This document shows positions 13,950-41,679 of a DNA stretch of 64,000 nucleotides, in pieces (position 1 is the first letter of the stretch; each line of letters opens with the position of its first letter). The stretch is from contig NZ_LMUR01000022.1 in assembly GCF_009765825.1 (NCBI RefSeq), positions 590,320-654,319 of the forward strand, in the 5' to 3' direction. The translations under genes were made by a program, and so were the position numbers. This stretch comes from Granulicella sp. L60 (GTDB taxonomy: Bacteria > Acidobacteriota > Terriglobia > Terriglobales > Acidobacteriaceae). Under the pieces are notes generated by a model. That model saw nothing but the letters and a program-made list of their open reading frames with translations, made no database searches and was not told the DNA's origin.

Positions 13950-15587
13950 CTAGTGATTGGCGGAGGGGCCGCCGGCTGGTTTGAAGCTCTTGGTGAGCAG
14001 GACGATGGGGGCGGCGACGAGGGTGATGACGCCGATGATGTGGAAGCAGTCCATGAAGGCGAGGAGCTGGGTCTGGGCGTGGAGCTCGTTGTAGACGCGA
14101 CCGTAGGCGGCGGTGACGGCGTCGGCAGGGGAGAAGCCGTGGGATTGCAGGTAGGCGGAGGTCTGGCGGATGTTCTGCTGGAGGGCTCCATTTGAAGCTG
14201 CGATGTTGGAACCGACGCGCTCCTGGTGGAAACTTTGGCGGCGGTCGGAGACGGTGGTGATGAAGGCGATGCCGAAGCTACCGCCCCAGTTGCGGAAGAA
14301 GTTGGTGAGGGACGAGGCCTTGTTGTTCTGCGCGGGGCTGAGCTGCGAGTAGGCAATGACGGAGAGCGGGACGAAGAAGAATCCGTAGCCGAGACCCTGG
14401 AGGGCGCGGGCGAGGGCGTAGTGCTTGTAGTCGGTGTCGAGGTTGAAGTGGGCGTAGTGGAGGAAGGACATCCCGACGATCATGACAGCTCCGAAGAGCA
14501 GGATGCGGGGCTTGACGATGCCGCGCTGGACGAGCTGCGCGCCTACGGGGGCTAAGAAGGTGATGACGAGTGCGCCGGGCCCGAGGACGAGGCCTGCGTC
14601 GATGGCGCGGTAGCCGTAGAGGGACTGGAGGAGCTGCGGGATCATGGTCGTTGAAGCGAAGAGGCCGAAGCCGAAGATGAAGTAGAAGAAGTTGGCGATG
14701 GCGAAGTTGCGGACTTTGAGGAGGCGGAAGTCGATGATGGGGTCGGGGACGTGGAGCTCCCAGAAGACGGCGGCGGTGAGGCAGCCGATGCCGACGACGA
14801 AGCACCCGATGATGAAGTGGGAGCCGAACCAGTCGTCGATCTGGCCGCGGTCGAGGAGGACTTCGAGGGCCGCGGAGCCGAGGCCGACGAGGGCGATGCC
14901 GATGCCGTCGACGCGGAGCTTGCCGTTGACACGGACGGTCTTGCGCTCTTCGGCGTAGGCGGGTGGGTCGTGGACGAAGCGGTTGGTGAGGAAGAGGGAG
15001 AGGAGGCCGACGGGGATGTTGATGAAGAAGACCCAGCGCCAGTTGTAGTTGTCGGTGATCCAGCCGCCGAGGACGGGGCCGATGGCGGGGGCGGTGACGA
15101 TGGCGACGGTGTAGAGGGCGAAGGCAGAGGCGCGTTTGGCGGGAGGGAAGGCGTCTACGAGGATGGCTTGCTCTACCGGGGCGAGGCCGCCTCCGCCGAT
15201 GCCTTGAAGGACTCGGGAGAGGAGCATGATGCCGAGGGTCGGGGCGATGCCGCAGAAGAAGGAGGTGATGGTGAAGAGGGTGACGCAGGCCATGTAGTAG
15301 GTCTTGCGTCCGAAGACGCGGGAGAGCCAGGCGGACATGGGAAGGACGACGGCGTTGGCGACGAGATAGGTGGTGAGGATCCAGGTGACTTCGTCGTAGG
15401 AGCGGCCGAGACCGCCGGCGATGTAGGGGAGGGAGACGTTGGCGATGGAGGTGTCGAGCAGCTCCATGAAGGTGGCGAGGGTGACGGTGAGGGCGATCAC
15501 CCAGGGGTTGATTAACGGGCGCAAGGGCGCGGAGGCTTTGGCGGGCGGGATAGCCTGGACCGGGTTGCTGAGGGTGGCGGTGGCCAT
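13950..15587 (-). CDS. DHA2 family MFS drug exporter (EmrB/QacA type)
   Basis: The 545-residue protein is a 14-helix major facilitator of the DHA2 (EmrB/QacA) group, which exports drugs by proton antiport. Motif D1 (ELLDTSIANVSLPYIAGGL) is in the first helix at about 42-60. Motif A (SRVFGRKTYY) lies between helices 2 and 3. Motif C (ATAPAIGPVLGGWITDNYNWRW type) is in helix 5 at about 167-186. The SD GGAGGAG precedes the ATG. No EmrA-type adaptor or outer-membrane channel is next to it. It is divergent from a TetR regulator with a palindromic operator between, a classic repressor/exporter pair. Confidence 0.9.
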   Translation of the reverse strand: MATATLSNPVQAIPPAKASAPLRPLINPWVIALTVTLATFMELLDTSIANVSLPYIAGGLGRSYDEVTWILTTYLVANAVVLPMSAWLSRVFGRKTYYMACVTLFTITSFFCGIAPTLGIMLLSRVLQGIGGGGLAPVEQAILVDAFPPAKRASAFALYTVAIVTAPAIGPVLGGWITDNYNWRWVFFINIPVGLLSLFLTNRFVHDPPAYAEERKTVRVNGKLRVDGIGIALVGLGSAALEVLLDRGQIDDWFGSHFIIGCFVVGIGCLTAAVFWELHVPDPIIDFRLLKVRNFAIANFFYFIFGFGLFASTTMIPQLLQSLYGYRAIDAGLVLGPGALVITFLAPVGAQLVQRGIVKPRILLFGAVMIVGMSFLHYAHFNLDTDYKHYALARALQGLGYGFFFVPLSVIAYSQLSPAQNNKASSLTNFFRNWGGSFGIAFITTVSDRRQSFHQERVGSNIAASNGALQQNIRQTSAYLQSHGFSPADAVTAAYGRVYNELHAQTQLLAFMDCFHIIGVITLVAAPIVLLTKSFKPAGGPSANH

Positions 15588-28638: not shown

Positions 28639-28698
28639 AGCTCTCCTAATGCGGAAAGGCCACCTCTTTCGAGGCGGCCTTTCCGCATTAGGAGAGCT
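28639..28698. terminator. Long perfect hairpin after the PEP-CTERM gene
   Basis: Positions 28639-28661 and 28676-28698 are perfectly complementary over 23 bp (AGCTCTCCTAATGCGGAAAGGCC and its complement). A further short ACCTC/GAGGC pairing lies around TTTC in the loop. It begins five bases after the stop codon. It ends only five bases before the partial tRNA copy, so it marks the last host sequence before the island. Confidence 0.75.
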
Positions 28699-28703
28699 GA
28701 TTC

Positions 28704-28755
28704 AAGATTGGTGCGCCCGGAAGGATTCGAACCTCCGACCCTTTGGTTCGAAGCC
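28704..28755. repeat. Attachment-site repeat, left (partial tRNA-Arg 3' half)
   Basis: These 52 bp are identical to 36525-36576. They carry the complement of the tRNA-Arg 3' part: CCA end, acceptor strand, T arm and half of the anticodon arm, plus six bases beyond the CCA. After 28755 the sequence no longer matches tRNA, so this copy is a truncated tRNA and not a gene. It is what tyrosine-recombinase integration at a tRNA 3' end leaves at the far end of an island. Confidence 0.85.
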
Positions 28756-29407
28756 GTAGGGGGCTAAACAATCCCACTACATCAGGAGATATCAAGAGGT
28801 AATAGATAGCGGTGTTTGTGCTGGTTTCTCGTTGCTTATAGATGTCTGGTCGTATCAGCTTCTATCAAGAGAGTTCCCACAGAATCTCCACATAATTGCC
28901 GGACGTCGTGTTTGCAGTGTGACGAATCTTTGGCTTGAGTTCAAGCTCTCCGACTGCGATCCAATCTTACTGAGGGTCTTTCCTTTGGAGGTCGCTCAAC
29001 TCCGGGTGATTTCTTAGGTGGATCGAGAGGCGATCATATGGCTGGTTTTTTCAGGCCTGACGAACATGATCGGCGGGACGGTGCGTCAGGTGGTGTGGCT
29101 GGGAATACTTCTGATTGTTCATTCGGCGACTTGGTGGATGCGCCGGCGACGAGGTGTGCTTCTAGCTGGGGGTCTTTTGTGGCTGATCGGCTGCGTCTGA
29201 GGCCGTGCCACGCTATACACTGCGAGCTGAAAATCCCAAGTCCAAATCCCCCAAATGCGAAGAGGAGGAGCTGTTCTCATTTTGCTTTAGATGGTGCGGA
29301 GTTAATGAGGGCAAATATTCACAAGACGAAATACAAAGGGAGAGCGCCAAAACAATCAATAGTCATGAGCATCTACTGAGTAAAGCTGTGTTGATGCTTA
29401 TAACTCT
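28756..29407. other. Left end of the island: short frames, no recognised gene
   Basis: This 650-bp, A+T-richer stretch lies between the left repeat and the first desaturase gene. One plus-strand frame is open from 28760 to 29200 except for a TAG at 29015-29017. Its first part is hydrophilic (about 85 codons), and the second has two hydrophobic segments. A further frame at 29205-29432 runs into the desaturase start. None has a convincing SD or family match, so decayed mobile-element genes are possible. The operon promoter must lie here. Confidence 0.4.
29018..29200 (+). CDS. Possible small membrane protein in the island (hypothetical)
   Basis: This 60-codon frame starts at a GTG directly after the TAG of the preceding frame. 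Two hydrophobic segments (IIWLVFSGLTNMIGG and VWLGILLIVHSATWW) are followed by RRRR and a last hydrophobic stretch. No SD is clear and no family is recognised. It could be a real small membrane protein, or the 3' half of a gene broken by the TAG at 29015. Confidence 0.25.
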   Translation: MDREAIIWLVFSGLTNMIGGTVRQVVWLGILLIVHSATWWMRRRRGVLLAGGLLWLIGCV

Positions 29408-30991
29408 ATGCATAGTAATCTTACGAAGTTAAGTTCTTCGCGCGTCGTCATTGTCGGGGCAGGACCGGGAGGGTTGGCGGCTGCGTTACTGCTGGCTAAG
29501 TCCGGAGTGCACGTTACTATCGTGGAAAAACGCGATCAGGTTGGCGGTAGAACATCTACGATCGAACGCGATGGGTTCAAATTCGACGTAGGTCCAACGT
29601 TCTTTTTATATCCAACCGTATTAAGAGAGATATTCAAGACTATCGGCTACGATCTGGATGTTGAAGTGCCGATGACTCGGCTAGATCCGCAGTACAGGCT
29701 GGTCTTCGGTGCAGGCGGAGAGCTTCTGGCGACGCCGGATGCCGATCGAATGATGAAGGCGGTAGCCACGATTTCACCGGCTGACGCAACCCGTCTGAAA
29801 GCGTTCATGGAGCAGAATCGAAAGAAGCTCACGAGTTTCATGCCAGTTCTGCAATCTCCCTTCGAGAGCTGGAAGGATCTAGCGACGCCGAAGATGATGA
29901 AGTTATTGCCACTACTGGCTCCATGGAGATCTTTGGACCAGGATCTACAGCGGCACTTTAAAGACGAGCGGATTCGACTTGGCTTCAGCTTTCAGTCGAA
30001 GTATCTCGGGATGAGTCCATTTCAGTGCCCGAGTCTATTTTCTATTCTTTCGTTTCTTGAGTATGAGCATGGAGTGTTCCATCCGACTGGCGGATGTGGA
30101 GCCATAACGCGGGCCATGGCGAGGATCGCTCGAGAGATGGGCGTTGAGATACTGCTGAATGAGCCGGTAGAGCGGGTGCTGGTCGAGAACGGCGAGGCGA
30201 TTGGTGTGAAGACGGTGCATCGCAGCCTGCCTGCAGATGCAGTGGTGATCAACGCAGACTTTGCGGGCGCGATGCAAAAGATGGTGCCGAATCATCTGCG
30301 AAAGCGATGGAAGGATAAGACGCTGGCCAAGAAGGACTATTCCTGCTCGACCTTCATGATGTACTTGGGCATCGACGGACGCTATGACGATGTGTCGCAT
30401 CACACAATCTATTTAGCCGAGAACTATCGACAGAACCTAAAAGATATTGAAACACTGCATCGGCTATCGGACAATCCATCTTTCTACGTCCAGAACGCTA
30501 GCGTGACCGATTCGACGCTTGCACCAAGAGGAAAGAGCACCCTTTATGTGCTATTTCCCGTTACCCATGAGATTGGGCGGGAAGAGGGCAGTACCGTGAA
30601 CTGGGAAAAAGAGACGCCTCGATTCCGAAGACTTGCTCTCGAGCAGTTGGAGAAGATCGGCATCACGGATGTGGAGCGGCGAATACGGACGGAGAAGATT
30701 ATGACTCCATCGGGCTGGAGCAGCGAGTTCAATCTATACAAGGGTGCGACGTTTAGCATGGCACACTCGCTTAAGCAGATGCTTCACCTGCGCCCGCACA
30801 ATCGTTTCGAAGACATAGGGCAGATGTATCTTGTGGGGGGAGGGACTCACCCAGGCAGCGGATTGCCTGTGATCTTTGAGTCAGCCCGAATCACATCGCG
30901 GTTGCTGCTACAGGATTTGAAGATTGAGCCGCAGTGGGAGTCGGCGTCGATGGGAGTCTCTGACGATGAATTAGTCGGAGTGGCGTCTTAG
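29408..30991 (+). CDS. CrtI/CrtN-family carotenoid desaturase (first)
   Basis: The 527-residue FAD enzyme belongs to the phytoene/dehydrosqualene desaturase superfamily. The N-terminal dinucleotide fold has VGAGPGG at 16-22, Glu40 binding the ribose and VGGRTSTIERDGFKFDVGPTF (in two parts), the family's second motif. The C-terminal FAD motif YLVGGGTHPGSGLPVI lies at about 480-495. Membrane association is expected. As the first gene of an operon with aldehyde dehydrogenase, acyltransferase and glycosyltransferase genes, it most likely desaturates a C30 backbone (CrtN role). A C40 substrate cannot be excluded from sequence. The start is ATG 29408 without a strong SD. Confidence 0.85.
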   Translation: MHSNLTKLSSSRVVIVGAGPGGLAAALLLAKSGVHVTIVEKRDQVGGRTSTIERDGFKFDVGPTFFLYPTVLREIFKTIGYDLDVEVPMTRLDPQYRLVFGAGGELLATPDADRMMKAVATISPADATRLKAFMEQNRKKLTSFMPVLQSPFESWKDLATPKMMKLLPLLAPWRSLDQDLQRHFKDERIRLGFSFQSKYLGMSPFQCPSLFSILSFLEYEHGVFHPTGGCGAITRAMARIAREMGVEILLNEPVERVLVENGEAIGVKTVHRSLPADAVVINADFAGAMQKMVPNHLRKRWKDKTLAKKDYSCSTFMMYLGIDGRYDDVSHHTIYLAENYRQNLKDIETLHRLSDNPSFYVQNASVTDSTLAPRGKSTLYVLFPVTHEIGREEGSTVNWEKETPRFRRLALEQLEKIGITDVERRIRTEKIMTPSGWSSEFNLYKGATFSMAHSLKQMLHLRPHNRFEDIGQMYLVGGGTHPGSGLPVIFESARITSRLLLQDLKIEPQWESASMGVSDDELVGVAS

Positions 30992-32490
30992 TGATGCTAA
31001 TGAATGTGATGGGTGCGGATGCGGCTCGCGAGATGATGGATGACGCAGATAAAGCTGCGGTGGATGTGTTCGACCTGTCCTCACTTCGTAAGGCGCAGCG
31101 TGTGTGGGATGGAGTGCCTATTCGAAAGCGCCTCGACGTATTGAGGCGTGCGAGATTTGCGATGTCTCAGATGGCTCGCGCATTTTCCGAAGCAATACCC
31201 TGGGAGTTGACGAGAACACCGGCGGATACGAGGGTAGCTGAGGGGCTTCCGTTGCTAGCTGCATGCCGGTTCCTGGAATGTAATGCAGAAAAGATCTTGC
31301 GTGCTCGACATCTGGGTAGACGGGGACTTCCGGTATGGCTGGCGGGACTAGATAGCGAGGTGCGGCGTGTACCTCACGGGGTCGTACTCGTGCTGGGGCC
31401 TTCGAACTACCCGTTGTTTCTTCCTGGCGTGCAGGCGCTGCAGGCTATAGCCGCGGGTAATGCTGTCGTGTGGAAGCCCGGAAAGGGCGGCGTAGCGGTG
31501 GCGATGCTATTTGCGGAAGCTCTTTATGGCGCAGGACTACCGCGTGAGTTGCTGATGGTCACGGAGGATTCGGTTGAGGCGGGCGAGCAGGCGTTGCGTT
31601 CTTCCGTGGATAAGGTTGTGTTCACTGGCTCGGCTGAAAATGCCAGGACGGTATTGCGGGAGTGTTCGGCAAGACTGATCCCATGTGTGGTGGAGGCCTC
31701 CGGGTGCGATGCGGTTATTGTGTTGCCATCGGCAGATACTGGGCGCGTGGTGAAGGCACTGGCGTTCGGTATGCGTCTCAACGGATCGGCTACGTGCATG
31801 GCTCCGAGAAGGGTGCTGCTGGTGAACGCATCTGAGGATCGGAAGAGGTCGCTTGTGGGTGGATTAGTTGCAGCGTTCGGTGAGGTTGAGAGCACGAGAG
31901 TTGCAGACGATACGCGATTGATTCTGTATGAGTTTTTGCATGAGGCTAAGCTACAAGGCGCTGCGGTAGTTGGCGCGGTTGATATAGAGCAGAGGCCCAT
32001 TTTGGTGACTGAGGCAAGACCCGAGATGCGGCTTGCGAGGTCGGACATATTTGCCCCCGTGCTCTCCATGATCGACATTGGGAGCGAGATGGAGTTGCTG
32101 GCGGCACAAGAGATTTGTCCGTTTGGACTGACGGCTTCGGTGTTTGGAGAGGAGCGCGAGGCTCGGCGTGTTGCGGAGATGCTTCACGTAGGTACGGTTC
32201 TTATCAACGATGTCATCGTCGGGACGGCAGATCCACGTGTTCCGTTTGGTGGCCGCAGAGAGAGTGGATTTGGAGTGACACGTGGCAGGGAGGGTCTTCT
32301 GGAAATGACTGCTGCGAAGGTAGTTTCTGTGCAGCGTAATAAGTCTCTTCGTACTTATGAGGCGACCGGCAAGGTACATGCGGAGCTGTTTGACGGGATC
32401 ATCCATGCGATGTACTCGCAGGAACCAGGCCAGCGGTGGAGCGGAGTGAGACAGGCGATACGAAGTGCAAGACGGCTTGGACCTAAGTAA
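30991..32490 (+). CDS. Aldehyde dehydrogenase, carotenoid-aldehyde type
   Basis: This NAD(P)-dependent aldehyde dehydrogenase has 499 residues. Catalytic residues are present in degenerate motifs: Asn139 in GPSNYP, Glu235 in VVEASGCD and Cys269 in NGSATCMAP. The fold also keeps FTGSAENART (Rossmann) and PFGGRRESGFGV near the C-terminus. The start GTG overlaps the desaturase stop by one base, with GGAG ten bases upstream. In C30 carotenoid pathways an aldehyde dehydrogenase (AldH/CrtNc type) oxidises the terminal aldehyde to a carboxylic acid. The operon position supports that role here. Confidence 0.82.
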   Translation: MMLMNVMGADAAREMMDDADKAAVDVFDLSSLRKAQRVWDGVPIRKRLDVLRRARFAMSQMARAFSEAIPWELTRTPADTRVAEGLPLLAACRFLECNAEKILRARHLGRRGLPVWLAGLDSEVRRVPHGVVLVLGPSNYPLFLPGVQALQAIAAGNAVVWKPGKGGVAVAMLFAEALYGAGLPRELLMVTEDSVEAGEQALRSSVDKVVFTGSAENARTVLRECSARLIPCVVEASGCDAVIVLPSADTGRVVKALAFGMRLNGSATCMAPRRVLLVNASEDRKRSLVGGLVAAFGEVESTRVADDTRLILYEFLHEAKLQGAAVVGAVDIEQRPILVTEARPEMRLARSDIFAPVLSMIDIGSEMELLAAQEICPFGLTASVFGEEREARRVAEMLHVGTVLINDVIVGTADPRVPFGGRRESGFGVTRGREGLLEMTAAKVVSVQRNKSLRTYEATGKVHAELFDGIIHAMYSQEPGQRWSGVRQAIRSARRLGPK

Positions 32491-32507
32491 TGACAGAAAG
32501 GTGCGGC

Positions 32508-34028
32508 ATGAAGGTTGGTGTGATCGGAAGTGGACTGGCCGGGTTGGCTGCAGCTTGTACGCTGGCCGCGCGCGGACATAGGGTGGAGGTGTTCGAGAAG
32601 AACTCTTGGCTGGGTGGGAAGGCTGCACAGTTGCGGACGAAAGGTTTCCGGTTCGATATGGGCCCGACGATCCTGATTCAGCCTTCCGTGTTGCGAAAGA
32701 TCTTCGAAGAGGCTGATCGACGCATGGAAGACTATGTTCCGATGATACGACTCGATCCACAGTGGAGGTGTTTCTTCGAGGATGGAACGCGATTGGATCT
32801 ACGCGATGATGCAGAGAAGATGGCGGCGCAGTTGGAGTCGATATGGCCTCGGATGGGCGCGGGCTATTTGAAGTTTCTAGAGACATCGGAGCAGTTGCAT
32901 TCCATCAGTGAACGGTTCTTCTTTTGGAGGTCGATTGGATCGATGAAGGACACGATGAATGTGGCTGGGGCGTTCGACATCAAGGTCCTAAAAGATGTAA
33001 TGCGGATGCGGCTGGGCAAGACGGTGGCGGGGACGATTCGTGAGTACATCCCTGATGCAAATGTGGCGCAGATGCTGGACCATTTTGTGCAGTATGTGGG
33101 GAGTTCGCCTGATGCATCACCGGCGATTCTTTGTGCGATCGGACACATGCAGATGGAAGAGGGGATCTGGTATCCGCTGGGAGGAACGCGCACAGTGCCG
33201 GAGGGTCTGGTGAAGCTGGCTGTAGAACTGGGCGTGGTATTCCATACTGAGACGGATGTGTCTCAGATTCTGACCGACGCTCCCCGACATGGTGGACGGA
33301 CCGGCGGTAGTGTTACAGGTCTGCTGACAACGCGTGGTGAGACGCATCGCTTCGATGCGGTGGTATCGAACGAAGATGCGGTGAGGACTCATCGGGAGCT
33401 GCTGGGCGGAGATGCGGCGCGGGAGTTTGAACATAAACGTAGTTATGAGCCTGCGTGCTCAGGCGTTGTGCTTTATCTGGGTCTGAACAGGCGCTATGAG
33501 CATCTGGCGCATCATGACTTCGTGTTCTCGCGTGATCCGCAGGAGGAGTTTCACTCGATCTATGAACGGGGTGAGCCCGCGCCGGATCCGACGTGCTATC
33601 TGGCAGCTACTGCAGCCACAGATCCGACGAGCGCTCCAGAGGGTGGCGAGTCGCTATATGTGTTGGTACATACTCCCTATCTGCGTGAACATCATGACTG
33701 GAAGAAGATGTTACCCGAGTATCGACAGGTGATTCTGGATAAGTTGAAGCGAACGGCTGGACTTGAAGATATTGAAGAGCGCATTGTGTTTGAAGATGCA
33801 CTGACGCCGCAGGATATTCATGAACGTTATCGGGTTTTGAATGGAGCGATCTATGGAATATCGAGCCATGGTGTGTTCCATGGTGCATTCAAGCCGGCGA
33901 ATCGCAGCAGGGAACTGGCTGGAATGTACCTTGCAGGTGGAGCGGCACATCCAGGGCCCGGAATGCCGATGGTAATTATGTCGGGATGGATTGCGGCAGA
34001 TGCTTTGGATCACGATGCGCAGGGTTGA
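32508..34028 (+). CDS. CrtI/CrtP-family carotenoid oxidoreductase (second)
   Basis: This second CrtI-superfamily flavoprotein has about 506 residues. The N-terminal VIGSGLAG motif is at 5-12, Glu30 ends the second strand, and KGFRFDMGPTILIQPSVL and the C-terminal YLAGGAAHPGPGMPMV motif are all present. It is clearly divergent from the first copy. In staphyloxanthin-type clusters the second homologue (CrtP) oxidises the terminal methyl group of the desaturated backbone to an aldehyde. That is the best guess here because the aldehyde dehydrogenase lies next to it. The frame opens at 32490, overlapping the preceding stop (TAATG); ATG 32508 has AAAGG eight bases upstream and is preferred. Confidence 0.82.
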   Translation: MKVGVIGSGLAGLAAACTLAARGHRVEVFEKNSWLGGKAAQLRTKGFRFDMGPTILIQPSVLRKIFEEADRRMEDYVPMIRLDPQWRCFFEDGTRLDLRDDAEKMAAQLESIWPRMGAGYLKFLETSEQLHSISERFFFWRSIGSMKDTMNVAGAFDIKVLKDVMRMRLGKTVAGTIREYIPDANVAQMLDHFVQYVGSSPDASPAILCAIGHMQMEEGIWYPLGGTRTVPEGLVKLAVELGVVFHTETDVSQILTDAPRHGGRTGGSVTGLLTTRGETHRFDAVVSNEDAVRTHRELLGGDAAREFEHKRSYEPACSGVVLYLGLNRRYEHLAHHDFVFSRDPQEEFHSIYERGEPAPDPTCYLAATAATDPTSAPEGGESLYVLVHTPYLREHHDWKKMLPEYRQVILDKLKRTAGLEDIEERIVFEDALTPQDIHERYRVLNGAIYGISSHGVFHGAFKPANRSRELAGMYLAGGAAHPGPGMPMVIMSGWIAADALDHDAQG

Positions 34029-34050
34029 TTCGTTCTGGATGAGGAATTCT

Positions 34051-34899
34051 ATGCGCGTTCCAGTTATTTCGACGATAACTCTCCGATTTTTTCGAAGGAT
34101 AGTGCGGGGCTGTCTTCGGCGGCACTTTCATGGAGTGCGGGCGAGCGGGGCAGAGAGGTTTGCTGAGCTGGGCGTACCAAATACTGGCCCCGTGATTGTC
34201 TATGCAAATCACGGTTCGTGGTGGGACCCTATGGTGTCTATCTATCTTGCCGAAAGACTGATGACGAGACGCCAGCACTATGCACCTATGGATGCAGCGG
34301 CATTAGAGCGATATGGGATCTTGAAACGTGTGGGGATGTTTGGTGTCAAGATGAACTCCACATTGGGAGCTATGGAGTTCTTGAAGACCAGCGAGGCAAT
34401 TCTCGGGGTAGGTGGTGTGCTTTGGATTACTCCCCAGGGACGTTTTGTCGATACGAGATCGAGGCCGCTAGAGTTCAAGCACGGTCTAGCCACCTTGGCG
34501 ACAAGAGTAGCGAATAGCACCGGGCGGTGCACGATGATTCCTTTGGCAATTGAATATACCTTCTGGGATGAGCGGCTGCCAGAGTGTCTGCTTTTGTTTG
34601 GGAAGCCGGTGAAGGTGGAGGCGGGACAGAGTGCAGATATGGTGCACCGACGTACGTTGGAGTCGCTGGAACTTGCGATGGATGAGCTAGCTGCGATGGG
34701 GATGGGACGCGATGCGAGCCGGTTCGACACCCTAACTCAAGCGAGGGTAGGTACTGGCGGATGTTATGGATGGTGGGAAAAGCTCAGAGGGCTTTCTGCG
34801 CGACGTGCCTATCATGCGGAAGATGTAGTAAGCATCGATCGTAAAGTAAATCGCAAAGAGAATCTTGATACGCACAAGGTGCGGCGCGAGAATGTTTGA
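34051..34899 (+). CDS. PlsC-like acyltransferase (CrtO-like role)
   Basis: The protein of about 282 residues is of the lysophosphatidic-acid acyltransferase (PlsC) type. The catalytic motif HX4D is NHGSWWDP (His54, Asp59), and a second block TPQGRFVDTRSRPLEFKHG resembles the substrate-binding motif. An N-terminal hydrophobic/basic segment may sit on the membrane. The ATG at 34051 has AGGAA seven bases upstream; earlier in-frame ATGs overlap the desaturase end. In C30 carotenoid clusters an acyltransferase attaches a fatty acid to the sugar, and the operon context points to that job. Confidence 0.75.
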   Translation: MRVPVISTITLRFFRRIVRGCLRRHFHGVRASGAERFAELGVPNTGPVIVYANHGSWWDPMVSIYLAERLMTRRQHYAPMDAAALERYGILKRVGMFGVKMNSTLGAMEFLKTSEAILGVGGVLWITPQGRFVDTRSRPLEFKHGLATLATRVANSTGRCTMIPLAIEYTFWDERLPECLLLFGKPVKVEAGQSADMVHRRTLESLELAMDELAAMGMGRDASRFDTLTQARVGTGGCYGWWEKLRGLSARRAYHAEDVVSIDRKVNRKENLDTHKVRRENV

Positions 34900-36025
34900 A
34901 GCGTTTGTTATCGCGACCATGTTGTGTTCGCTTGCGCCAGCGGTCTTGTTCTGCGTGAATTGGCGTCGATATCTGCCTCCGCCCAAGGCTGTGGGAGACC
35001 CGGTGCCTTCCGTTTCAGTTCTCATCCCGGCTCGGAATGAAGAGTCTGGGATCCAAGCAGCTGTGGAGAGTGCGCTTAGAAGCAAGGGTGTGGTATTCGA
35101 GGTGATCGTGATGGACGACGGCTCGACAGATCGAACGGCTGAGCTTGTCCAGCAGATGGCGGAGGCGGACAGAAGGATTAAATTGCGGCATGCCCCTGCG
35201 TTGCCGGCGAAGTGGAATGGGAAGCAGCATGCATGTTGGATGCTTGCTGGTGTGGCGCAGTACGACTTGCTCTGTTTTGTCGATGCAGATGTGAGACTGG
35301 AGTCCGAGTGTCTGGCGAGGATGGCGGCGATGCTGCAGCATGGCGGGCAGGGGTTGGTGAGCGGGTTTCCCCGGCAAGAGACGAAGACGTGGCTAGAATG
35401 GCTCATGCTGCCACTTATCCACTTCGTCTTGCTTGGCTTTTTGCCGGTTGAAAGAATGAGGCGTACGACTGACCCATCGTTCGCAGCGGGCTGTGGTCAA
35501 TTTATGCTCGTGCGACGCGAAGATTATTTTGCGTGTGGGGGGCATCGTGAGATCAGTGCGACGATGCACGACGGACTTCTATTGCCTAAGCTATTCCGCC
35601 GACATGGATTTCGGACAGATCTTGCCGACTTGACCTCATTAGCAACCTGCAGGATGTATCAGAGTGCGGGGCAGGTGTGGCAGGGACTGGCGAAGAATGC
35701 GACAGAGGGCATGGCAGATCCAGCGCGGATTGTGCCTATCAGCCTACTGCTGCTGATGGGCCAGGTGCTGCCGTTCGTGCTGGCTGGATGGCTATGTCTA
35801 GAGAGTAAAGCTTCAGCTGCGACCGTCGTATATGTTCTGATTGCGATTGCCGGAGCTTGGCTACCTCGAACTCTGGCAAGCTGGAGGTTCAAGCAGGATT
35901 GGCGAAGTGCGCTGCTGCACCCATTGGGAATTTTGATGATGCTGGCAATGCAGTGGTATGCGCTGGGTCGAAAACTCATGGGCAGCGCTGTGAGTTGGCG
36001 GGAGCGTTCCTACCTGGAGGATTAA
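34892..36025 (+). CDS. Family 2 glycosyltransferase (CrtQ-like role)
   Basis: The 377-residue membrane glycosyltransferase is of the GT-A type. An N-terminal hydrophobic helix is followed by SVLIPARNEE at about 42-51, the nucleotide-sugar motif DDGSTD at 75-80 and the metal-binding DAD at 131-133. Two or three C-terminal membrane helices (about 285-365) precede the tail VSWRERSYLED. The start overlaps the acyltransferase gene by 8 bp, so translation is coupled. CrtQ of the staphyloxanthin pathway esterifies the carotenoic acid with glucose; the operon suggests this activity. A homologue with the same architecture lies at 38170-39249, outside the island. Confidence 0.82.
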   Translation: MFEAFVIATMLCSLAPAVLFCVNWRRYLPPPKAVGDPVPSVSVLIPARNEESGIQAAVESALRSKGVVFEVIVMDDGSTDRTAELVQQMAEADRRIKLRHAPALPAKWNGKQHACWMLAGVAQYDLLCFVDADVRLESECLARMAAMLQHGGQGLVSGFPRQETKTWLEWLMLPLIHFVLLGFLPVERMRRTTDPSFAAGCGQFMLVRREDYFACGGHREISATMHDGLLLPKLFRRHGFRTDLADLTSLATCRMYQSAGQVWQGLAKNATEGMADPARIVPISLLLLMGQVLPFVLAGWLCLESKASAATVVYVLIAIAGAWLPRTLASWRFKQDWRSALLHPLGILMMLAMQWYALGRKLMGSAVSWRERSYLED

Positions 36026-36123
36026 TCGATGGCTGATCTGCGCCAGCTCTGACAATCAGGTGCAGTCGCCGTGAACATCCCTCTAGTAGATTGCTCGCCG
36101 TCTGGGACCAGGTTAGCGTGGTC

Positions 36124-36279
36124 TCACTGATACAGTTCCAGCATGCATCTGCCTTCGCAGAACCATTGATTGTCGTGGGTCAGATCACGGTAGATCCCCA
36201 GAATAGCTATCCCCTGCAACGGCTTATTCATCAACAGCATCGCCTCGGGTTTATATTCTCCCTTGCCCCTTAGCGTCAT
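36124..36279 (-). CDS. Hypothetical 51-residue protein at the right island end
   Basis: This short minus-strand frame (ATG at 36277-36279, TGA at 36124-36126) reads like protein: basic N-terminus, then MLLMNKPLQGIAILGIYRD and NQWFCEGRCMLELYQ, with two Cys four residues apart. No SD is clear and no family is recognised. It could be a real small gene or the remains of a larger one at the island edge. The plus-strand frame across the same bases looks less protein-like. Confidence 0.3.
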   Translation of the reverse strand: MTLRGKGEYKPEAMLLMNKPLQGIAILGIYRDLTHDNQWFCEGRCMLELYQ

Positions 36280-36286
36280 GGCTGGC

Positions 36287-36481
36287 ATGAATAAAAAGCT
36301 CATTGCTAGAGAGTGGCTATTTTTGATGGGCGGAGTGGTCGCGGGCCTGCTGCTGCTGAATCTTACTCAGAATTCGATAAAAGACGATGGCGATGCTTGG
36401 GAAGCTTCTATTACTCCATATGTTTTATTCCAAATTGTCCGGTCGATAGGATGGGCCGTAAATACGATCAGAGCAAAATAG
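36287..36481 (+). CDS. Small membrane protein at the right island end (hypothetical)
   Basis: This 64-residue frame has a basic start (MNKKLIAREW), one clear membrane helix (LFLMGGVVAGLLLLNLT), a polar linker and a second hydrophobic segment (YVLFQIVRSIGWAV). ATG 36278 is an alternative start. The stop lies 43 bp before the right attachment repeat. No family is recognised. A+T-rich codon use fits the island, not the host flank. Confidence 0.4.
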   Translation: MNKKLIAREWLFLMGGVVAGLLLLNLTQNSIKDDGDAWEASITPYVLFQIVRSIGWAVNTIRAK

Positions 36482-36524
36482 CTATGGTGTTTCAAGTATG
36501 TTTATGCCTCTGCAAGCTCTTGAT

Positions 36525-36576
36525 AAGATTGGTGCGCCCGGAAGGATTCGAACCTCCGACCCTTTGGTTCGAAGCC
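36525..36576. repeat. Attachment-site repeat, right (inside tRNA-Arg)
   Basis: This is the intact-side copy of the 52-bp direct repeat. It covers six bases beyond the CCA end and the tRNA from the CCA to the anticodon arm (36525-36576). It is identical to 28704-28755. Confidence 0.85.
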
Positions 36577-36606
36577 AAATGCTCTATCCAGCTGAGCTAC
36601 GGGCGC
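36530..36606 (-). tRNA. tRNA-Arg (anticodon TCG)
   Basis: The minus strand reads GCGCCCG for the acceptor 5' strand, a GCTC-AGCTGGATA-GAGC D arm, and an anticodon arm TTTGG-CTTCGAA-CCAAA with anticodon TCG. The T arm GGAGG-TTCGAAT-CCTTC follows, then CGGGCGC, discriminator A and an encoded CCA. All stems pair. TCG reads the Arg codon CGA. Its 3' half is duplicated at 28704-28755, marking it as the integration site of the island on its 3' side. Confidence 0.95.
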
Positions 36607-36662: not shown

Positions 36663-36935
36663 CTAGGCGGATGCCGCGGCTGGTGGTGGAGGTGGAGGAG
36701 GCGCGGGTGCGGAGAGGGGCACAGTCTCGACGATGTCGAGGCCGGCGCGGCGCAGGAGCTGGTGGATGACCGGCTCTGTGAGGCGGCTGGCGTCGAACTC
36801 AACGCGGACGGTCTTCTTGGCCTCGTTGAACTCTATGAGGCGTACGCCGTAGACCTCGCGCACCCTGGCCATGGCGAGGGTCGCTGACTCGGTGGGAGGG
36901 ACGCCGTAGCGGTAGAGAACGTCTAGCTGGGTCAT
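36663..36935 (-). CDS. Heavy-metal-associated-like small protein without CxxC
   Basis: The 90-residue protein has a beta-alpha-beta pattern resembling an HMA (heavy-metal-associated) domain: MARVREVYGVRLIEFNEAKKTVRVEFD, then LTEPVIHQLLRRAGLDIVE. The metal-binding CxxC of true HMA domains is absent. The last 15 residues are a Pro/Ala tail. Such degenerate HMA domains may bind other ligands or proteins. It is host-type sequence just 5' of the tRNA, on the same strand. Confidence 0.5.
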   Translation of the reverse strand: MTQLDVLYRYGVPPTESATLAMARVREVYGVRLIEFNEAKKTVRVEFDASRLTEPVIHQLLRRAGLDIVETVPLSAPAPPPPPPPAAASA

Positions 36936-36996
36936 GGGTTGATGATATCAGCGGTGCGGGTGCAGGGGTAGGCGATGGTTTCCTTAGAATGGGGGG

Positions 36997-37650
36997 ATGG
37001 GATTATCAGAGTCGTCGGAAAGAATAGGGGCATTGCGTTTGCCGGAGGTGTCGGCGCTGGCTTTGGCGGAGGGGACTTTCTCGGCGCTGATCTTTGACTG
37101 TGACGGGACGCTGGTGGATACGGCGCCGGCGCATCTGCGGGCGTTGCAGGTGGGGTTGGCGGCGCTTGAGCTGACGATGACGCCGGAGTGGTATTACCCG
37201 CGGGGCGGACTGACTCCGGATGCAATGTGGGGTGAGTATGAGGCACATGTGGGGGTGGCTCGCCTTCCGCGGGAGAGCTTGAACCAGCGGTATACAGCGG
37301 CGTTTCAGGAGGGGTTGGATCGGCTGGAGGAGGTGACGGTGATCGCAGAGGTTGCGCGTGCGTGGCATGGCAGGGTCCCGATGGCGGTGGCGTCGAATGG
37401 GCGGCGGTTGAACGTGGAGGCGAGTCTGAGAGCGACGAAGCTGCTTGGCTTGTTCGACTGGGTGGTGGCTGCGGAGGATGTGAGGCACGGGAAGCCGGAG
37501 CCGGATGTGTTTCTGGAGGCGGCGCGGCGGATGAAGGTCGAGCCGGAGGGATGCATCGTGTTTGAGGACTCGAATGAGGGGCTGGAGGCTGCGCGGCGGG
37601 CAGGGATGCGGGCGATCGATATTCGCGAGTTCTTTCGGCCGGAGCGGTAG
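36997..37650 (+). CDS. HAD superfamily phosphatase/phosphomutase (beta-PGM-like)
   Basis: The 217-residue HAD subfamily IA hydrolase has motif I FDCDGTLVDT at about 33-42 with the nucleophilic Asp. Motif II is AVASNGRR, motif III is the Lys in HGKPEPDVFLEA, and motif IV is the acidic pair in VFEDSNEGLEAA. The cap helices after motif I match the beta-phosphoglucomutase/phosphatase type. The substrate cannot be told from sequence. The ATG follows GGGGGG closely. It is convergent with the tlpA-like gene (6-bp gap). Confidence 0.85.
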   Translation: MGLSESSERIGALRLPEVSALALAEGTFSALIFDCDGTLVDTAPAHLRALQVGLAALELTMTPEWYYPRGGLTPDAMWGEYEAHVGVARLPRESLNQRYTAAFQEGLDRLEEVTVIAEVARAWHGRVPMAVASNGRRLNVEASLRATKLLGLFDWVVAAEDVRHGKPEPDVFLEAARRMKVEPEGCIVFEDSNEGLEAARRAGMRAIDIREFFRPER

Positions 37651-37656
37651 GGCGGG

Positions 37657-38139
37657 CTACATTCTGGCGAGGTAGTTGGCGATCTCGGGGCTGGTCCAGT
37701 CCTGGGCGTTGACGAACTTGCGGCGGAGGACGCCCTGGCGGTCGATGATGTAGGTCTCGGGGATCTGGACGGTGCCGTAGAGGGAGTCGACCTTGTGGTT
37801 CTGGTCGCGGACGGTGAGGAGATCGACGTGGTGCTCGATGAGGAAGCGATGGTAAACGTCGGGGTCCTCGTCCCAGGAGACGGCGATGATGGCGAGGTTG
37901 GGCTGCTGGCGCTGGAGGGCGAGGAGGCTGGGGAGCTCTTCGATGCAGGGTGCGCACCAGGTGGCCCAGAGGTTGAGGACGACGACGCGGCCACGGAGCT
38001 TGCTAAGGTCGACGGTCTGGGTGCCGTCGCTGAGGACGAACTGGGGGGCGGGCTTGTCGATGTTGCCGGGATGGCTTCCTCGGTCGCAGCCGGTGATCAG
38101 CAGTAATCCCACGAACAGAGTTACACAGACTTTACGCAC
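37657..38139 (-). CDS. TlpA/ResA-like thioredoxin-fold lipoprotein
   Basis: This membrane-anchored periplasmic thiol-disulfide protein has the thioredoxin motif WATWCAPCIEE. The lipobox LLITGC follows a hydrophobic signal peptide. The family reduces or oxidises periplasmic cysteines, for example in cytochrome c maturation. The later motifs GTVQIPETYIID (cis-Pro) and DRQG fit TlpA/ResA. The frame opens at GTG 38151, but an AGGAA touches that codon. GTG 38139 has GGAG six bases upstream and keeps the full signal peptide, so it is chosen. No cytochrome gene is adjacent. Confidence 0.8.
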   Translation of the reverse strand: MRKVCVTLFVGLLLITGCDRGSHPGNIDKPAPQFVLSDGTQTVDLSKLRGRVVVLNLWATWCAPCIEELPSLLALQRQQPNLAIIAVSWDEDPDVYHRFLIEHHVDLLTVRDQNHKVDSLYGTVQIPETYIIDRQGVLRRKFVNAQDWTSPEIANYLARM

Positions 38140-38155
38140 AGTAGGCTCCACTTCC

Positions 38156-38161
38156 TATAAT
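38156..38161 (+). promoter_or_regulatory. TATAAT -10 element, possible leaderless mRNA
   Basis: A perfect TATAAT lies eight bases before the GTG start codon of the glycosyltransferase gene, with a weak TTTACG 19 bp upstream as -35. Transcription would begin at or next to the start codon, giving a leaderless message. This agrees with the lack of an SD. Confidence 0.4.
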
Positions 38162-38169
38162 ACGAAGTC

Positions 38170-39249
38170 GTGACCTTTGATGAGAACGCTAATTCGATAG
38201 AAGTGCCTGAGCTTGAACTTTCGGTCATTATTCCTGCACGCAACGAGGAGCGCTCGCTGGGTGCTTGCATGGCTTCGCTGCTGCGGCAGTCGGAGCCGGG
38301 CTTTGCGCTGGGACAGCAGTGGGAGGTGATCGTCGTCGATGACGATTCGACCGATAGGACGCGGGAGATCGCGGTTGAGGCTGCGGGTGGGCAGGATGGG
38401 GTGGTGGTGATGGATGCTCCGACGCTGGATGTGACGGCGAATGGAGGATTTACGGGCAAGAATAACGCCTGCTGGGCGGCGGCGCAGGTGGCTCGGGGGC
38501 GGCATTTGCTTTTTACCGATGCGGATACGGTGCATGAGACGAACGATATCTCGCGGTCGTTGCGGGAGGCGGAGAGGCATAAGGCGGTGCTGCTTTCTTA
38601 CTCGCCGAGGCAGATTGTGAAGGGTTTCTGGCAGCATGCGGTGATGCCGCTGGTGTTTTCGGAGCTGGCGTCGGTGTATCCGCCGAAGCAGGTGAATGAC
38701 CCTGTGAGCAGGCTGGCGGCGGCGAATGGGCAGTTCTTGATGGTGGAGCGGGATGCGTATTTTTCGGTGGGCGGGCATCGCGCGGTGGGGACAAATGTTC
38801 TGGAGGATGTGGCGCTGGCGCATGCTATTAAGCGCGGGCCGCGGGTAATTCGATTTCGGTACGCTCCGGAGGCGCTTTCGACGCAGATGTATCGGACGAC
38901 GCCGGAGATGATCGAGGGATGGACGAAGAATCTTGCGCTGCTGTTTCCGAAGCCGGTGATGCTGGCGCTGTGGCGGATTCTGGATGTGCTGCTGTTCTTT
39001 GGGCTGCCATTGATTGCGGGTGGGGTTTATTGGCTTTTGCCGTGGCAGAGGAGCGTCATCCTGCTGCTGTGGGTGCGAACGCTGTGGCGGTTCTATTCAC
39101 GCGTGGCGCGGTCGAACTTTCCGGCGTTCGATGTGGGGATTTCGATTCTCGGGGTTCCGCTGTTTGTTTATCTATTGATTCGCAGTGCTGTGCATCATCG
39201 CATCAAAAAGAGTGTGAGTTGGAAGGGACGAAGTTATAAGGTCAGTTAG
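38170..39249 (+). CDS. Family 2 glycosyltransferase, membrane-anchored
   Basis: The 359-residue GT-A glycosyltransferase has SVIIPARNEE at about 18-27, DDDSTD at 57-62, the FTDADT metal site at about 116-121, and two or three C-terminal membrane helices (about 270-340) ending in VSWKGRSYKVS. Layout and tail match the island glycosyltransferase (VSWRERSY). Hopanoid-associated (HpnB-like) and carotenoid (CrtQ-like) members share this form. GTG 38170 is used because the conserved first strand begins 17 residues later and no ATG lies between; GTG 38203 is an alternative. No SD is seen. The tlpA-like gene is divergent. Confidence 0.78.
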   Translation: MTFDENANSIEVPELELSVIIPARNEERSLGACMASLLRQSEPGFALGQQWEVIVVDDDSTDRTREIAVEAAGGQDGVVVMDAPTLDVTANGGFTGKNNACWAAAQVARGRHLLFTDADTVHETNDISRSLREAERHKAVLLSYSPRQIVKGFWQHAVMPLVFSELASVYPPKQVNDPVSRLAAANGQFLMVERDAYFSVGGHRAVGTNVLEDVALAHAIKRGPRVIRFRYAPEALSTQMYRTTPEMIEGWTKNLALLFPKPVMLALWRILDVLLFFGLPLIAGGVYWLLPWQRSVILLLWVRTLWRFYSRVARSNFPAFDVGISILGVPLFVYLLIRSAVHHRIKKSVSWKGRSYKVS

Positions 39250-39306
39250 AAGTCCACACGTTGCATCCACCTCGTTTTCTGTGCGTCTAACTAGATTGGG
39301 ATATAC

Positions 39307-39717
39307 ATGATTTTTCTTACACGCAAGGCCGAATTTTCTTCTGCGCACTTCTATTGGAACGATGCCTGGTCGCCGGAGGAGAACCTGCGGGTCTTCGGCA
39401 AGTGCTCGAATCGCAACGGCCACGGTCACAATTACACGCTGGAGGTGACGGTGGCGGGAACGGTGGATCCGGTGTCGGGGTTTGTGGTGGATCTGAAGGA
39501 GTTGAAAGAGATTCTGGAGCAGGAGGTGGTCAGCGTCTACGATCATCGGCACTTGAATCTTGAGGTGCCTGAGTTTGCGACGATGATTCCTACGACTGAG
39601 AATATCGCTACCGCGATCTGGCGGCGGCTGGATAACAAGATTCCTCATGCGAAGCTGCACCGGGTGAGGGTCTACGAGATGCCTGACCTGTTTGCGGACT
39701 ATTATGGTGAGCCATGA
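39307..39717 (+). CDS. 6-pyruvoyl-tetrahydropterin synthase family protein (first copy)
   Basis: The 136-residue protein has the PTPS/QueD T-fold. Zinc ligands are His14 (SSAHFYW) and His39 and His41 in GKCSNRNGHGHNY. Cys33 is the catalytic residue. The spacing Cys-x5-His-Gly-His is that of true PTPS enzymes; QueD has Cys-x3-His-Gly-His. The motif DPVSGFVVDLKELK and the catalytic YDHRHLN are present. It overlaps the second copy by 4 bp and lies in an operon with folE, which supplies dihydroneopterin triphosphate. A biopterin-like or other pterin product is likelier than queuosine, as no other que gene is near. Confidence 0.85.
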   Translation: MIFLTRKAEFSSAHFYWNDAWSPEENLRVFGKCSNRNGHGHNYTLEVTVAGTVDPVSGFVVDLKELKEILEQEVVSVYDHRHLNLEVPEFATMIPTTENIATAIWRRLDNKIPHAKLHRVRVYEMPDLFADYYGEP

Positions 39718-40157
39718 AGGTTTACCTTTCACGCAGGTACCACTTCAGCGCATCGCATCGTCTGCATACGGAGGCTTACGATGCGGCGACGAATGCAGCC
39801 GTGTTCGGCAAGTGTAATCATCCACACGGACACGGGCATAACTACACGGTTCAGGTTACGGTGAGTGGGCAGGTTGATCCGGTGACGGGAATGGTGTGCG
39901 ATCTTGGTGAGCTGGATGGCTTTGCACAAACAAATCTACTGGGCCGGTTTGATCATACGAATTTGAATACGCTGGATTGCTTTGAAGACATGGTCTCGAC
40001 GACGGAGAATCTGAGTATCGAGATCTTTCGGATCTTCCAGGGATTTACCGCTGCTCATCTGGAGCGGGTTCATGTTGAAGAGACGAGCAACAACTCGTTT
40101 GACTATGCCGGCGACGACTATGCCGGTGACGCTGTTCCTGCACCGGGGACGATCTAA
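39714..40157 (+). CDS. 6-pyruvoyl-tetrahydropterin synthase family protein (second copy)
   Basis: This 147-residue paralogue of the preceding gene keeps His15 (SASHRL), Cys34 and His40/His42 in [13 protein letters not shown]. The [13 protein letters not shown] strand and FDHTNLN are also conserved. A Gly/Ala/Asp-rich C-terminal tail of about 18 residues with a repeated YAGDDYAGD is additional. All catalytic residues are kept in both copies, so they may make different pterins or form a mixed hexamer. The start is within ATGA of the first copy's stop. Confidence 0.83.
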
Positions 40158-40171
40158 GAAAGGCACCTTCT

Positions 40172-40780
40172 ATGCCACGTACGTCGGCTGCTGTTGAACC
40201 ATCTTTGCTTGAGAGTACTTCTACGCAGGACCTATATCGCGAACTGCTGGTGCGTATCGGCGAGGACCCTGAGCGGGACGGCCTGCTACGCACGCCGGAG
40301 CGCATGGAGAAGTCCATGGCGTTTCTGACGCGCGGCTACACGATGGACGTAACGGAGGTGCTGCACAATGCGCTGTTCGACGTCGATTACGATGAGATGG
40401 TCATCGTGAAGGATATCGAGTTTTTTTCGCAGTGCGAGCATCATCTGCTGCCCTTTTTCGGCAAGGCGCACATTGCGTATGTGCCGAATGGAAAAGTGAT
40501 TGGGTTGAGCAAGATTCCGCGGCTGGTGGATGTGTTTGCGCGGAGGCTGCAGGTGCAGGAGCGTCTGACGCGACAGATCGGCGATGCGATTACGGAGGCG
40601 ATTCATCCGCAGGGCGTGGCCGTGATTCTGGAGGCGCAGCATCTTTGCATGATGATGCGTGGGGTGGAGAAGCAGCACTCGCATACGGTGACTTCGGCGA
40701 TGCTTGGTGTGTTCAAGACGCAGCTGCAGACGCGGAACGAGTTTCTTTCGCTGGTGCGGCGGCAGGGAAGCGGCGTCTAG
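40172..40780 (+). CDS. folE: GTP cyclohydrolase I
   Basis: FolE converts GTP to 7,8-dihydroneopterin triphosphate, the entry to folate and tetrahydropterins. The 202-residue product has zinc ligands Cys88 and His91 ([10 protein letters not shown]) and Cys159 ([11 protein letters not shown]). The [23 protein letters not shown] block is intact (two parts). AAAGG lies about eight bases before the ATG. It follows the PTPS pair by 14 bp, so the three genes make a pterin operon, with truB 26 bp further on. Confidence 0.95.
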
Positions 40781-40806
40781 CTTGCAGCGGGTAGACTAGA
40801 AGTTGC

Positions 40807-41679
40807 ATGAATGGTCTTCTTGTACTTGATAAACCCTGTGGCGTCACCTCGCATGATGTCGTTTCGATCGTTCGGCGCGCTACCGGCGAGAAGTCGATAG
40901 GACACCTCGGCACTCTGGACCCCATGGCTACGGGGGTGTTGCCGCTGCTGCTGGGGAAGTACACGCGGCTGGCGCAGTTTTTTGGGCAGGCTGCGAAAGA
41001 GTACAGCGGGCATATTCGCTTTGGATTCGCGACAGATAGTTTTGATGCCGAGGGAGTGGCGTCGTCTGCTGCGATGCCTTTGACGCGATCTTTCGATGAG
41101 TTGCGTGCGATGAGCTGCAGGTTTCGTGGAGAGATGGACCAGATGCCGCCGATCTTTTCGGCGAAGAAGATCAATGGGGTGGCTGCACACAAGCTGGCAC
41201 GGGCCGGGGTGGAGGTTGCGGTGAAGCCAGCGCGGATTACGATTCATCACTTCGAGTTAACGGGGCTGGAGGGTGATACGGCGGCGTTCACCATGGAGGT
41301 TTCGGCTGGCGGGTATGTTCGTTCGGTCGCGCATGAGTTGGGAGAGATGGCTGGGTGTGGAGCGCATCTTTCGAGTCTTCGGCGGGTGAGGGCGGGGGCT
41401 TTTACGCTGGGGCAGGCGATTACTGTGGATCAGTTGAAGCAGGCTTCTGTTGGTGAGCTGGAGGCGTTGTTGCCGCATCCGCGGCTGTTGTTGCCGGAGA
41501 TGCCGGCGGTGACGGTGGACGATCAGTTGGCGGGGCGGCTGCGGAATGGGATGCAGGTGAATCTGCCGGATTTTTCGGATGCGCCGTTGATCAAGGTGTT
41601 TACGAGTCCGACGGATTTGTTGGCGATTGCGCGGCGGGTTGCGGGGACGCTGATGCAGCCTATTGTCGTGCTGGGTTAG
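40807..41679 (+). CDS. truB: tRNA pseudouridine-55 synthase
   Basis: TruB isomerises U55 in the T loop of tRNAs. The 290-residue protein opens with GLLVLDKPCGVTSHDVV and has the catalytic Asp38 in GTLDPMATGVLPL, the YSGHIRFG strand, and SAGGYVRSVAHELGE. A C-terminal PUA-like part (VDDQLAGRLRNGMQV) is shorter than in the Escherichia coli enzyme. It follows folE on the same strand, so transcription from the pterin operon is likely. Confidence 0.95.
   Translation: MNGLLVLDKPCGVTSHDVVSIVRRATGEKSIGHLGTLDPMATGVLPLLLGKYTRLAQFFGQAAKEYSGHIRFGFATDSFDAEGVASSAAMPLTRSFDELRAMSCRFRGEMDQMPPIFSAKKINGVAAHKLARAGVEVAVKPARITIHHFELTGLEGDTAAFTMEVSAGGYVRSVAHELGEMAGCGAHLSSLRRVRAGAFTLGQAITVDQLKQASVGELEALLPHPRLLLPEMPAVTVDDQLAGRLRNGMQVNLPDFSDAPLIKVFTSPTDLLAIARRVAGTLMQPIVVLG

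Follow-up and report, generated by a model that had tools for sequence, protein, structure and literature searches.

The 64,000-nucleotide (nt) stretch of the Granulicella sp. L60 genome analysed here, hereafter the window (contig NZ_LMUR01000022.1, forward-strand positions 590,320 to 654,319), contains a carotenoid-type pigment operon of five genes, enclosed by two copies of the 3' part of a transfer RNA (tRNA) gene, tRNA-Arg(TCG). An earlier note, made from the letters alone, had read this segment as an island integrated at the tRNA, with a pigment trait acquired as one unit. The locus is probably what remains of a small genomic island that entered at the 3' end of tRNA-Arg(TCG) and has decayed since; its operon, old in the genus, was lost from its home site and later brought here.

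The repeat, the tRNA gene and the operon

The two repeat copies are identical at 52 of 52 positions and are the only two matches to this sequence in the 5.9-Mb genome assembly, with up to 3 mismatches allowed; a chance origin of such a 52-mer repeat is negligible. The right copy lies within the sole tRNA gene that ARAGORN finds in the window, an intact tRNA-Arg(TCG) whose 3' end points towards the segment (Table 1). The left copy extends from the anticodon stem to the encoded CCA and 5 bp beyond, and is without the 5' half. In other words, each border of the 7.8-kb segment carries a directly repeated tRNA 3' end, and the intact tRNA stands at one of them, the features by which tRNA islands are recognised. 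The earlier note had described the repeat, the intact and the truncated tRNA, and a lower G+C content over about 7.8 kb, and all of these were found as described. The left copy no longer makes a tRNA, and its complete identity to the right one suggests that the insertion was recent, barring gene conversion. The 47-nt tRNA core of the repeat gave no exact match in viral contigs.

The G+C content is 54.0% between the repeats, as against 59.9% in the left flank and 61.0% in the right flank. At third codon positions (GC3), the operon genes have 54.7-61.1% and 16 flanking genes 58.1-91.0%. Five enzyme genes are all that is recognised between the repeats, and there are no conjugation or relaxase genes among them.

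Table 1. Features at and around the island (positions in the window), followed by genes facing the same tRNA in related genomes (positions in the locus named)
Feature	Position	Strand	Basis or remark
Near-perfect inverted repeat, 28 nt, terminator-like hairpin, just beyond the left repeat	28639..28698		Arms 28639-28666/28671-28698, 96% complementary
Left end repeat, attL-like: orphan tRNA-Arg(TCG) 3' half including CCA, plus 5 bp	28704..28755	-	Repeat search, genome-wide match
Left island end, no recognised gene	28756..29407		About 650 bp, 49.2% G+C
crtN-like C30 carotenoid desaturase, CrtI family, 527 amino acids	29408..30991	+	TIGR02734 527.9 bits, cut-off 238.1
aldH-like aldehyde dehydrogenase, 499 amino acids	30991..32490	+	PF00171 E=3.7e-70
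crtP/crtNb-like carotenoid oxidase, CrtI family, 506-512 amino acids depending on start codon	32490..34028	+	TIGR02734 406.6 bits
PlsC-like acyltransferase; frame open from 33991, exact start uncertain	34033..34899	+	PF01553 E=1.4e-9
Family-2 glycosyltransferase, start uncertain, open frame from 34865	34892..36025	+	NCBIfam resemblance to HpnB/CruG, under the cut-offs
Right island end, no recognised gene	36026..36513		About 500 bp, 48.9% G+C over 36026-36524
Integrase-footprint-like motif ATCAAGAGCTT, abutting the right repeat on its outer side	36514..36524	-	Differs at one position from the consensus of four further tRNA-Arg(TCG) sites
Right end repeat, attR-like, within the intact tRNA gene (its 3' part)	36525..36576	-	Repeat search
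tRNA-Arg(TCG), intact	36530..36606	-	ARAGORN
Conserved chromosomal right flank, adjoining the same tRNA in relatives	36663..41679		Profile searches, comparison with relatives
PEP-CTERM gene facing tRNA-Arg(TCG), genome G001	L140 14129-14830		
PEP-CTERM gene facing tRNA-Arg(TCG), genome G029	L199 5123-5782		
PEP-CTERM gene facing tRNA-Arg(TCG), genome G073	L138 6836-7477		

The operon consists of five intact, tightly packed plus-strand genes in the order crtN-aldH-crtP-acyltransferase-glycosyltransferase. All five are homologues of C30-cluster genes (CrtN, CrtP, AldH, the acyltransferase and the glycosyltransferase), and the operon is, by its gene content, predicted to be of the squalene-based C30 carotenoid type. 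The full order, crtN-aldH-crtP-plsC-GT2, was found in 6 of 17 loci tested, namely those of Acidipila rosea, Acidicapsa dinghuensis, Granulicella paludicola, two further metagenome-assembled genomes (MAGs) of the Acidobacteriota and a Verrucomicrobiales MAG. A divergent second cluster with crtN-, aldH- and crtP-like genes (35-37% identical in crtP) is present in three genomes of the comparison, G014, G023 and G009 (L132, L133, L134), which are without the main operon.

The operon has no synthase gene. The window genome (G000 in the comparison) has exactly two SQS_PSY genes and no third, a tandem pair away from the operon (G000:C20:475978-477665), and SQS_PSY genes are present in 21 of 21 genomes tested, operon carriers or not. 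Scored for the corresponding pair of genome G025, HpnC reached 297.2 (above its cut-off of 250.45) and the best HpnD score was 226.9 (below its cut-off of 278.6). HpnE is represented in the window genome by a short match alone, directly after the synthase pair (G000:C20:477752). Because the synthase genes lie elsewhere, the operon would act as a plug-in module diverting squalene. In Methylobacterium extorquens AM1, homologous genes are reported to turn squalene, supplied by HpnC/D/E, into a C30 diapolycopenedioic acid that is glycosylated and acylated (PMC10448405). By analogy, the operon would convert squalene, presumably supplied by HpnC/HpnD-like enzymes encoded elsewhere, to a glycosylated and acylated C30 carotenoid.

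The tRNA-Arg(TCG) site in related genomes

Rightwards of the tRNA lie genes named here as HMA-like, HAD, TlpA-like, GT2b, QueD-like, QueD-like, FolE-like and TruB-like; they are kept beside tRNA-Arg(TCG) in relatives, though not every gene is present in each locus. In 11 relatives' loci in which this right flank was compared, tRNA-Arg(TCG) stands without the operon, and carriers have the operon elsewhere. The earlier note had counted against its reading any close relative with the operon at this place and no flanking repeat; no relative examined has the operon there.

The 3' side of the tRNA is variable. In the 17 loci holding both tRNA-Arg(TCG) and tRNA-Arg(ACG), the distance between them ranges from 77 bp to 12.5 kb, and the content of this side differs among many of the 17, which supports the idea that the structure was left by integration at a tRNA. 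In the window genome, tRNA-Arg(ACG) lies on another contig with its usual neighbours. The two tRNAs are on separate contigs in three genomes: G000 (C19/C20), G002 (C9/C3) and G029 (C33/C54).

One relative, G002, has a Phage_integrase gene at the same tRNA-Arg(TCG). The gene lies at about 13.05-14.17 kb of locus L196 (G002:C9), beside the tRNA at 14330-14406, and no tRNA-Arg fragment was found on its other side within 14 kb. This occupied site shares a motif with the window. The motif at 36514-36524 matches, with one mismatch, the consensus of four other tRNA-Arg(TCG) flanks, that of G002 among them, and the left repeat copy shows five mismatches to it. Of 24 tRNA-Arg(TCG) 3' flanks, 5 have the pattern ATCAANNRCTT 2-5 nt past the tRNA; the 24 include the window's left copy, which is without it. 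The pattern is present in 0 of 20 tRNA-Arg(ACG) flanks, and the shuffled mean is 0.004. When the four-site consensus, from which the window had been excluded, was applied to nine tRNAs of the window genome that lie near integrase genes, three matched with at most one mismatch, the chance of such a match being 0.0022 per site. These observations suggest that the motif may be the trace of an integrase attachment arm on the tRNA side, with the integrase itself gone.

It should be mentioned that the window genome holds 26 Phage_integrase matches (loci L033-L058), and that a tRNA is present in 9 of the 20 loci scanned; these tRNAs are Phe, Met, Leu, Asp, Gln, Met, Cys, Ala and Ala.

On the other side of the island, the directly adjoining gene encodes a PEP-CTERM protein, and the 28-nt inverted repeat at 28639-28698 sits between this gene and the left tRNA fragment. 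The earlier note had expected the PEP-CTERM gene and the tRNA to be neighbours in relatives lacking the operon. This holds only in a general form: three of 22 tRNA-Arg(TCG) loci have a PEP-CTERM gene that is at most 1.1 kb from the tRNA and faces its 3' end, with the same arrangement as in the window (G001, 112 bp; G029, 637 bp; G073, 1076 bp), and a fourth such gene, in G078, lies 7.9 kb from the tRNA. The proteins of G073 and G029 align to that of the window over the C-terminal 25-29 residues only, the protein of G001 gave no match to it, and no orthologue of the window's protein was found at the relatives' tRNA-Arg(TCG) loci (n=22).

The home site of the operon and its other addresses

Among 62 genomes of the genus, 24 carry the operon (crtP at E<=1e-200). 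The operon of G071 is on a 3.2-kb contig and therefore cannot be placed, which leaves 23 placed carriers. In 16 of these, the operon lies in one common chromosomal neighbourhood; where both neighbours are kept, it has a purine-nucleoside-permease gene on one side and a weakly PIG-L-like gene on the other, and it is not at a tRNA. At least one of these neighbours also adjoins the operon in 7 of 18 Acidobacteriota-type loci beyond the 24 carriers (one of the 18 is labelled as another phylum). The neighbourhood is therefore taken as the ancestral home site, and the operon appears, on this comparison, to be old in the genus and not foreign.

Seven carriers have the operon away from home, at six unrelated sites: G000 (the window), G025 (Edaphobacter lichenicola M8US30), G029 (Granulicella sp. 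S190), G036, G078, and G066 together with G084, which share a site with flanking proteins that are 99-100% identical (one 84%). In the core-gene tree, G000, G025, G029, G078 and G066 belong to a single clade, which comprises eleven genomes. Twelve genomes have a closed home site, namely 10 of the 11 clade members in the tree (G018 was left out) and G084 and G085, both absent from the tree. In these genomes the two genes found on either side of the operon in home carriers match 33-164 bp apart, and the seven junctions inspected are alike. The flanking pair was not found side by side in G036, G026, G001, G023, G069 and G075.

In G066 and G084, the operon lies about 0.4 kb from tRNA-Gln(CTG), whose 3' end faces it; close to the tRNA-Gln(CTG) of the window genome there is an integrase. 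On the left side of the G066 operon, no tRNA-Gln fragment match over 10 nt and no repeat was found within 6 kb, and the footprint motif is absent at this tRNA; this second tRNA case is therefore suggestive only. A type III restriction-like gene is on the other side of the operon at these loci (L258, tRNA at 13043-13116, in G066; L259 in G084). The operon stretches examined in the 20 remaining placed carriers contain no tRNA.

A common mobile backbone around the relocated operons was considered and rejected, as DNA homology between the relocated carriers reaches no further than 192 bp ahead of crtN and 41 bp past the last gene. Open reading frames (ORFs) from the window's flanks gave no match beyond the operon in nine further carrier loci, except for a glycosyltransferase paralogous to the operon's own gene. 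A search for repeats of at least 20 nt bracketing the operons of G025, G029, G036, G078 and G066 within 20 kb returned imperfect pairs only. Among the relocated carriers, the operon is the sole common part. A pair of permease-like and FAD-enzyme-like genes, named by eye, is present near the relocated operon in G025 (L120 17235-19990) and at the tRNA-Arg site in G078 (L193 13787-16836).

The operon tree places G000 as sister to (G078,(G025,(G066,G084))) with support of 100/100. G007 and G036 join this group in the tree, an arrangement broadly like that of the core tree. Among 36 pairs of home carriers, the ratio of operon to core distance is 1.20-1.76, with a median of 1.33. For G000 against carriers with core data it is 1.41-1.90, with the exception of G029 (3.68); in other words, the operon distances of G000 are at or slightly above the range of the home pairs. 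The ratio reaches 4.30 for G025-G066 and 3.7-7.5 for G029 against the other clade members, and is about 1.0 for G078 against G025 and G066. These ratios point clearly to between-species exchange of the operon for G025/G066 and for G029. A single lineage of all six clade carriers, G029 included, is disfavoured (approximately unbiased (AU) test, p=0.030), the six-carrier group having been named after a smaller core tree had been seen. Taken together, the ratios and the trees indicate exchange for some members and leave, for the window copy, either descent with relocation or uptake from a close relative.

The earlier claim of acquisition as one unit is thus partly borne out. The operon moved whole, as claimed; acquisition from outside is not supported, as the operon is ancestral in the genus and the window copy groups with its own clade. 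The earlier note had also named vertical gene trees as evidence against its reading, and the operon tree largely fits descent within the genus.

Origin of the island and of its cargo

We propose that a tyrosine integrase inserted the island at the 3' end of tRNA-Arg(TCG) and that the integrase gene was lost afterwards. Integration would have rebuilt the tRNA on the right, while a 52-bp copy of its 3' part would have remained on the left. The operon would have been lost from the ancestral site before the window's clade diversified, and would have reached tRNA-Arg(TCG) later, from elsewhere in the genome or from a close relative.

Several observations weigh against this proposal or parts of it. 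A PF00589 scan of the whole genome placed none of the 26 matches on the window's contig, so that the island, as the earlier note had stated of this tRNA-bounded pigment operon, holds no integrase gene. Furthermore, 43 ORFs from integrase regions, opposite-strand frames included, gave no match to the island better than E=0.004. The pattern ATCAANNRCTT was drawn after the rows had been viewed, the window's own copy among them, and 6 of the 9 integrase/tRNA sites of the window genome carry at least two mismatches to the footprint consensus. Two of the six new operon sites are at tRNAs, and the other four have no tRNA in the stretches examined. At tRNA-Arg(TCG) itself, G066, G014, G032 and G025 have one common gene set, so that not all differences at this site are separate inserts. 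The open frame of the G002 integrase ends before its similarity to the G018 integrase does, and the gene may therefore be broken. The pilus block and the YCF48-like gene have different neighbours in relatives, and one such neighbour is on a third contig in the window genome, so that the left side of the island has also been rearranged. Finally, an exact two-sided empty site was not found in any relative examined.

As for the source of the cargo, the chances seem to be balanced that a close relative in the genus was the donor, the operon having arrived on the tRNA-Arg island. This would account for the patchy presence of the operon in the clade, at differing sites and with the operon as the sole common part; the operon's G+C content of 54.9, like that of the G025 operon (54.2) and under that of its own flanks, is also consistent with it, as is the exchange seen for G025/G066 and G029. 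The main objections are that none of the 22 other operons compared is above 77% identity to it in concatenated proteins, and that its position in the tree is the one expected under descent.

That same position, which follows the core tree as far as sampled, favours a second account, to which we would give somewhat less than even chances: the operon descended vertically, left its home site in an ancestor of the clade, and was re-inserted within the genome at tRNA-Arg(TCG) by or with an integrase-bearing element. Most ratios of G000 are near those of the home carriers. Against the nine home carriers, however, three lie above the home maximum and every one lies above the home median. The operon is also absent in 6 of the 11 clade genomes (G018, G077, G002, G072, G014, G032), so that many losses would be required under vertical descent, and the same clade shows between-species exchange.

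It is unlikely that the tRNA island was older and that the operon entered it later by transposition or illegitimate recombination. The common unit of the relocated genomes does end at the operon edges, with no common vehicle, and most of the new sites have no tRNA in the stretches examined; on the contrary, nothing else is recognisable between the repeats here, and no direct repeat closely brackets the operon, in a search that does not cover very short target repeats. An assembly error or gene conversion, which would make the left tRNA fragment an artefact or its identity uninformative on age, is very improbable: the assembly has 22 contigs and an estimated contamination of 2.79%, and a 52-bp repeat can mislead short-k assemblies, but both copies lie within one 848-kb contig, the sequence beyond each copy differs, and the right side matches relatives. 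A distant donor of the whole trait, from another family or phylum, is hardly credible and is rejected on the operon tree and the nearest copies: the G+C content is under that of the flanks and the same five-gene order is found outside the phylum, but the closest copies are within the genus, the window copy nests in its own clade, and among the best 80 loci listed, copies beyond the 24 carriers are at most 79% identical in crtP.

A wider history may be considered for the clade, one that could equally well prove right or wrong: the C30 operon would be nomadic, lost once from a home site that is conserved in the genus and beyond it, and repeatedly regained from close relatives at different sites by different vehicles, including integrases at tRNA-Arg and possibly tRNA-Gln, the squalene-synthase-type pair staying in every genome tested. 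If so, these genomes would form a natural series showing how one complete pathway is gained, lost and relocated. The locus itself links a pigment pathway that is compact and distinct in composition with one specific integration site. The comparison set is unusually complete, with the ancestral site occupied, the ancestral site closed, and six new sites. It allows tests of whole-pathway loss and regain between close species, and of whether habitat or light favours regain.

Genomic islands at tRNA genes that have lost their integrase are a known kind of element. The present island is like them in its pair of 3' tRNA repeats, its rebuilt tRNA, its lower G+C content and the variation of the site between species; it is unlike them in being very small (7.8 kb), with one biosynthetic operon as cargo and no mobility gene. 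The island is thus of a familiar type, and the surprise is an operon with an ancestral address that in one clade was lost there and turns up at several new addresses. No description of this island was found in the titles and abstract openings of the papers listed, among them one on Acidobacteria and crtN (PMC2889829). The Bradyrhizobium islands with photosynthesis gene clusters (PMC7656271) offer a parallel in that a light-related cluster is reported to bear a genomic-island hallmark, for a different pathway. The C30 genes of M. extorquens AM1 (PMC10448405) offer another, with homologues of CrtN, CrtP, the acyltransferase and the glycosyltransferase, and with HpnC/D/E for squalene encoded elsewhere. 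In four Methylobacterium/Methylorubrum loci, crtP-plsC-GT2 stand together, crtN is several kb off or not among the matches listed, and no aldH is among the matches listed, whereas here all five genes form one operon. A further counterpart is the home-site operon of the genus, which has the same five genes in the same order and is 79-88% identical to the window copy in crtP, but has the permease and PIG-L-like neighbours, where both are kept, and is not at a tRNA.

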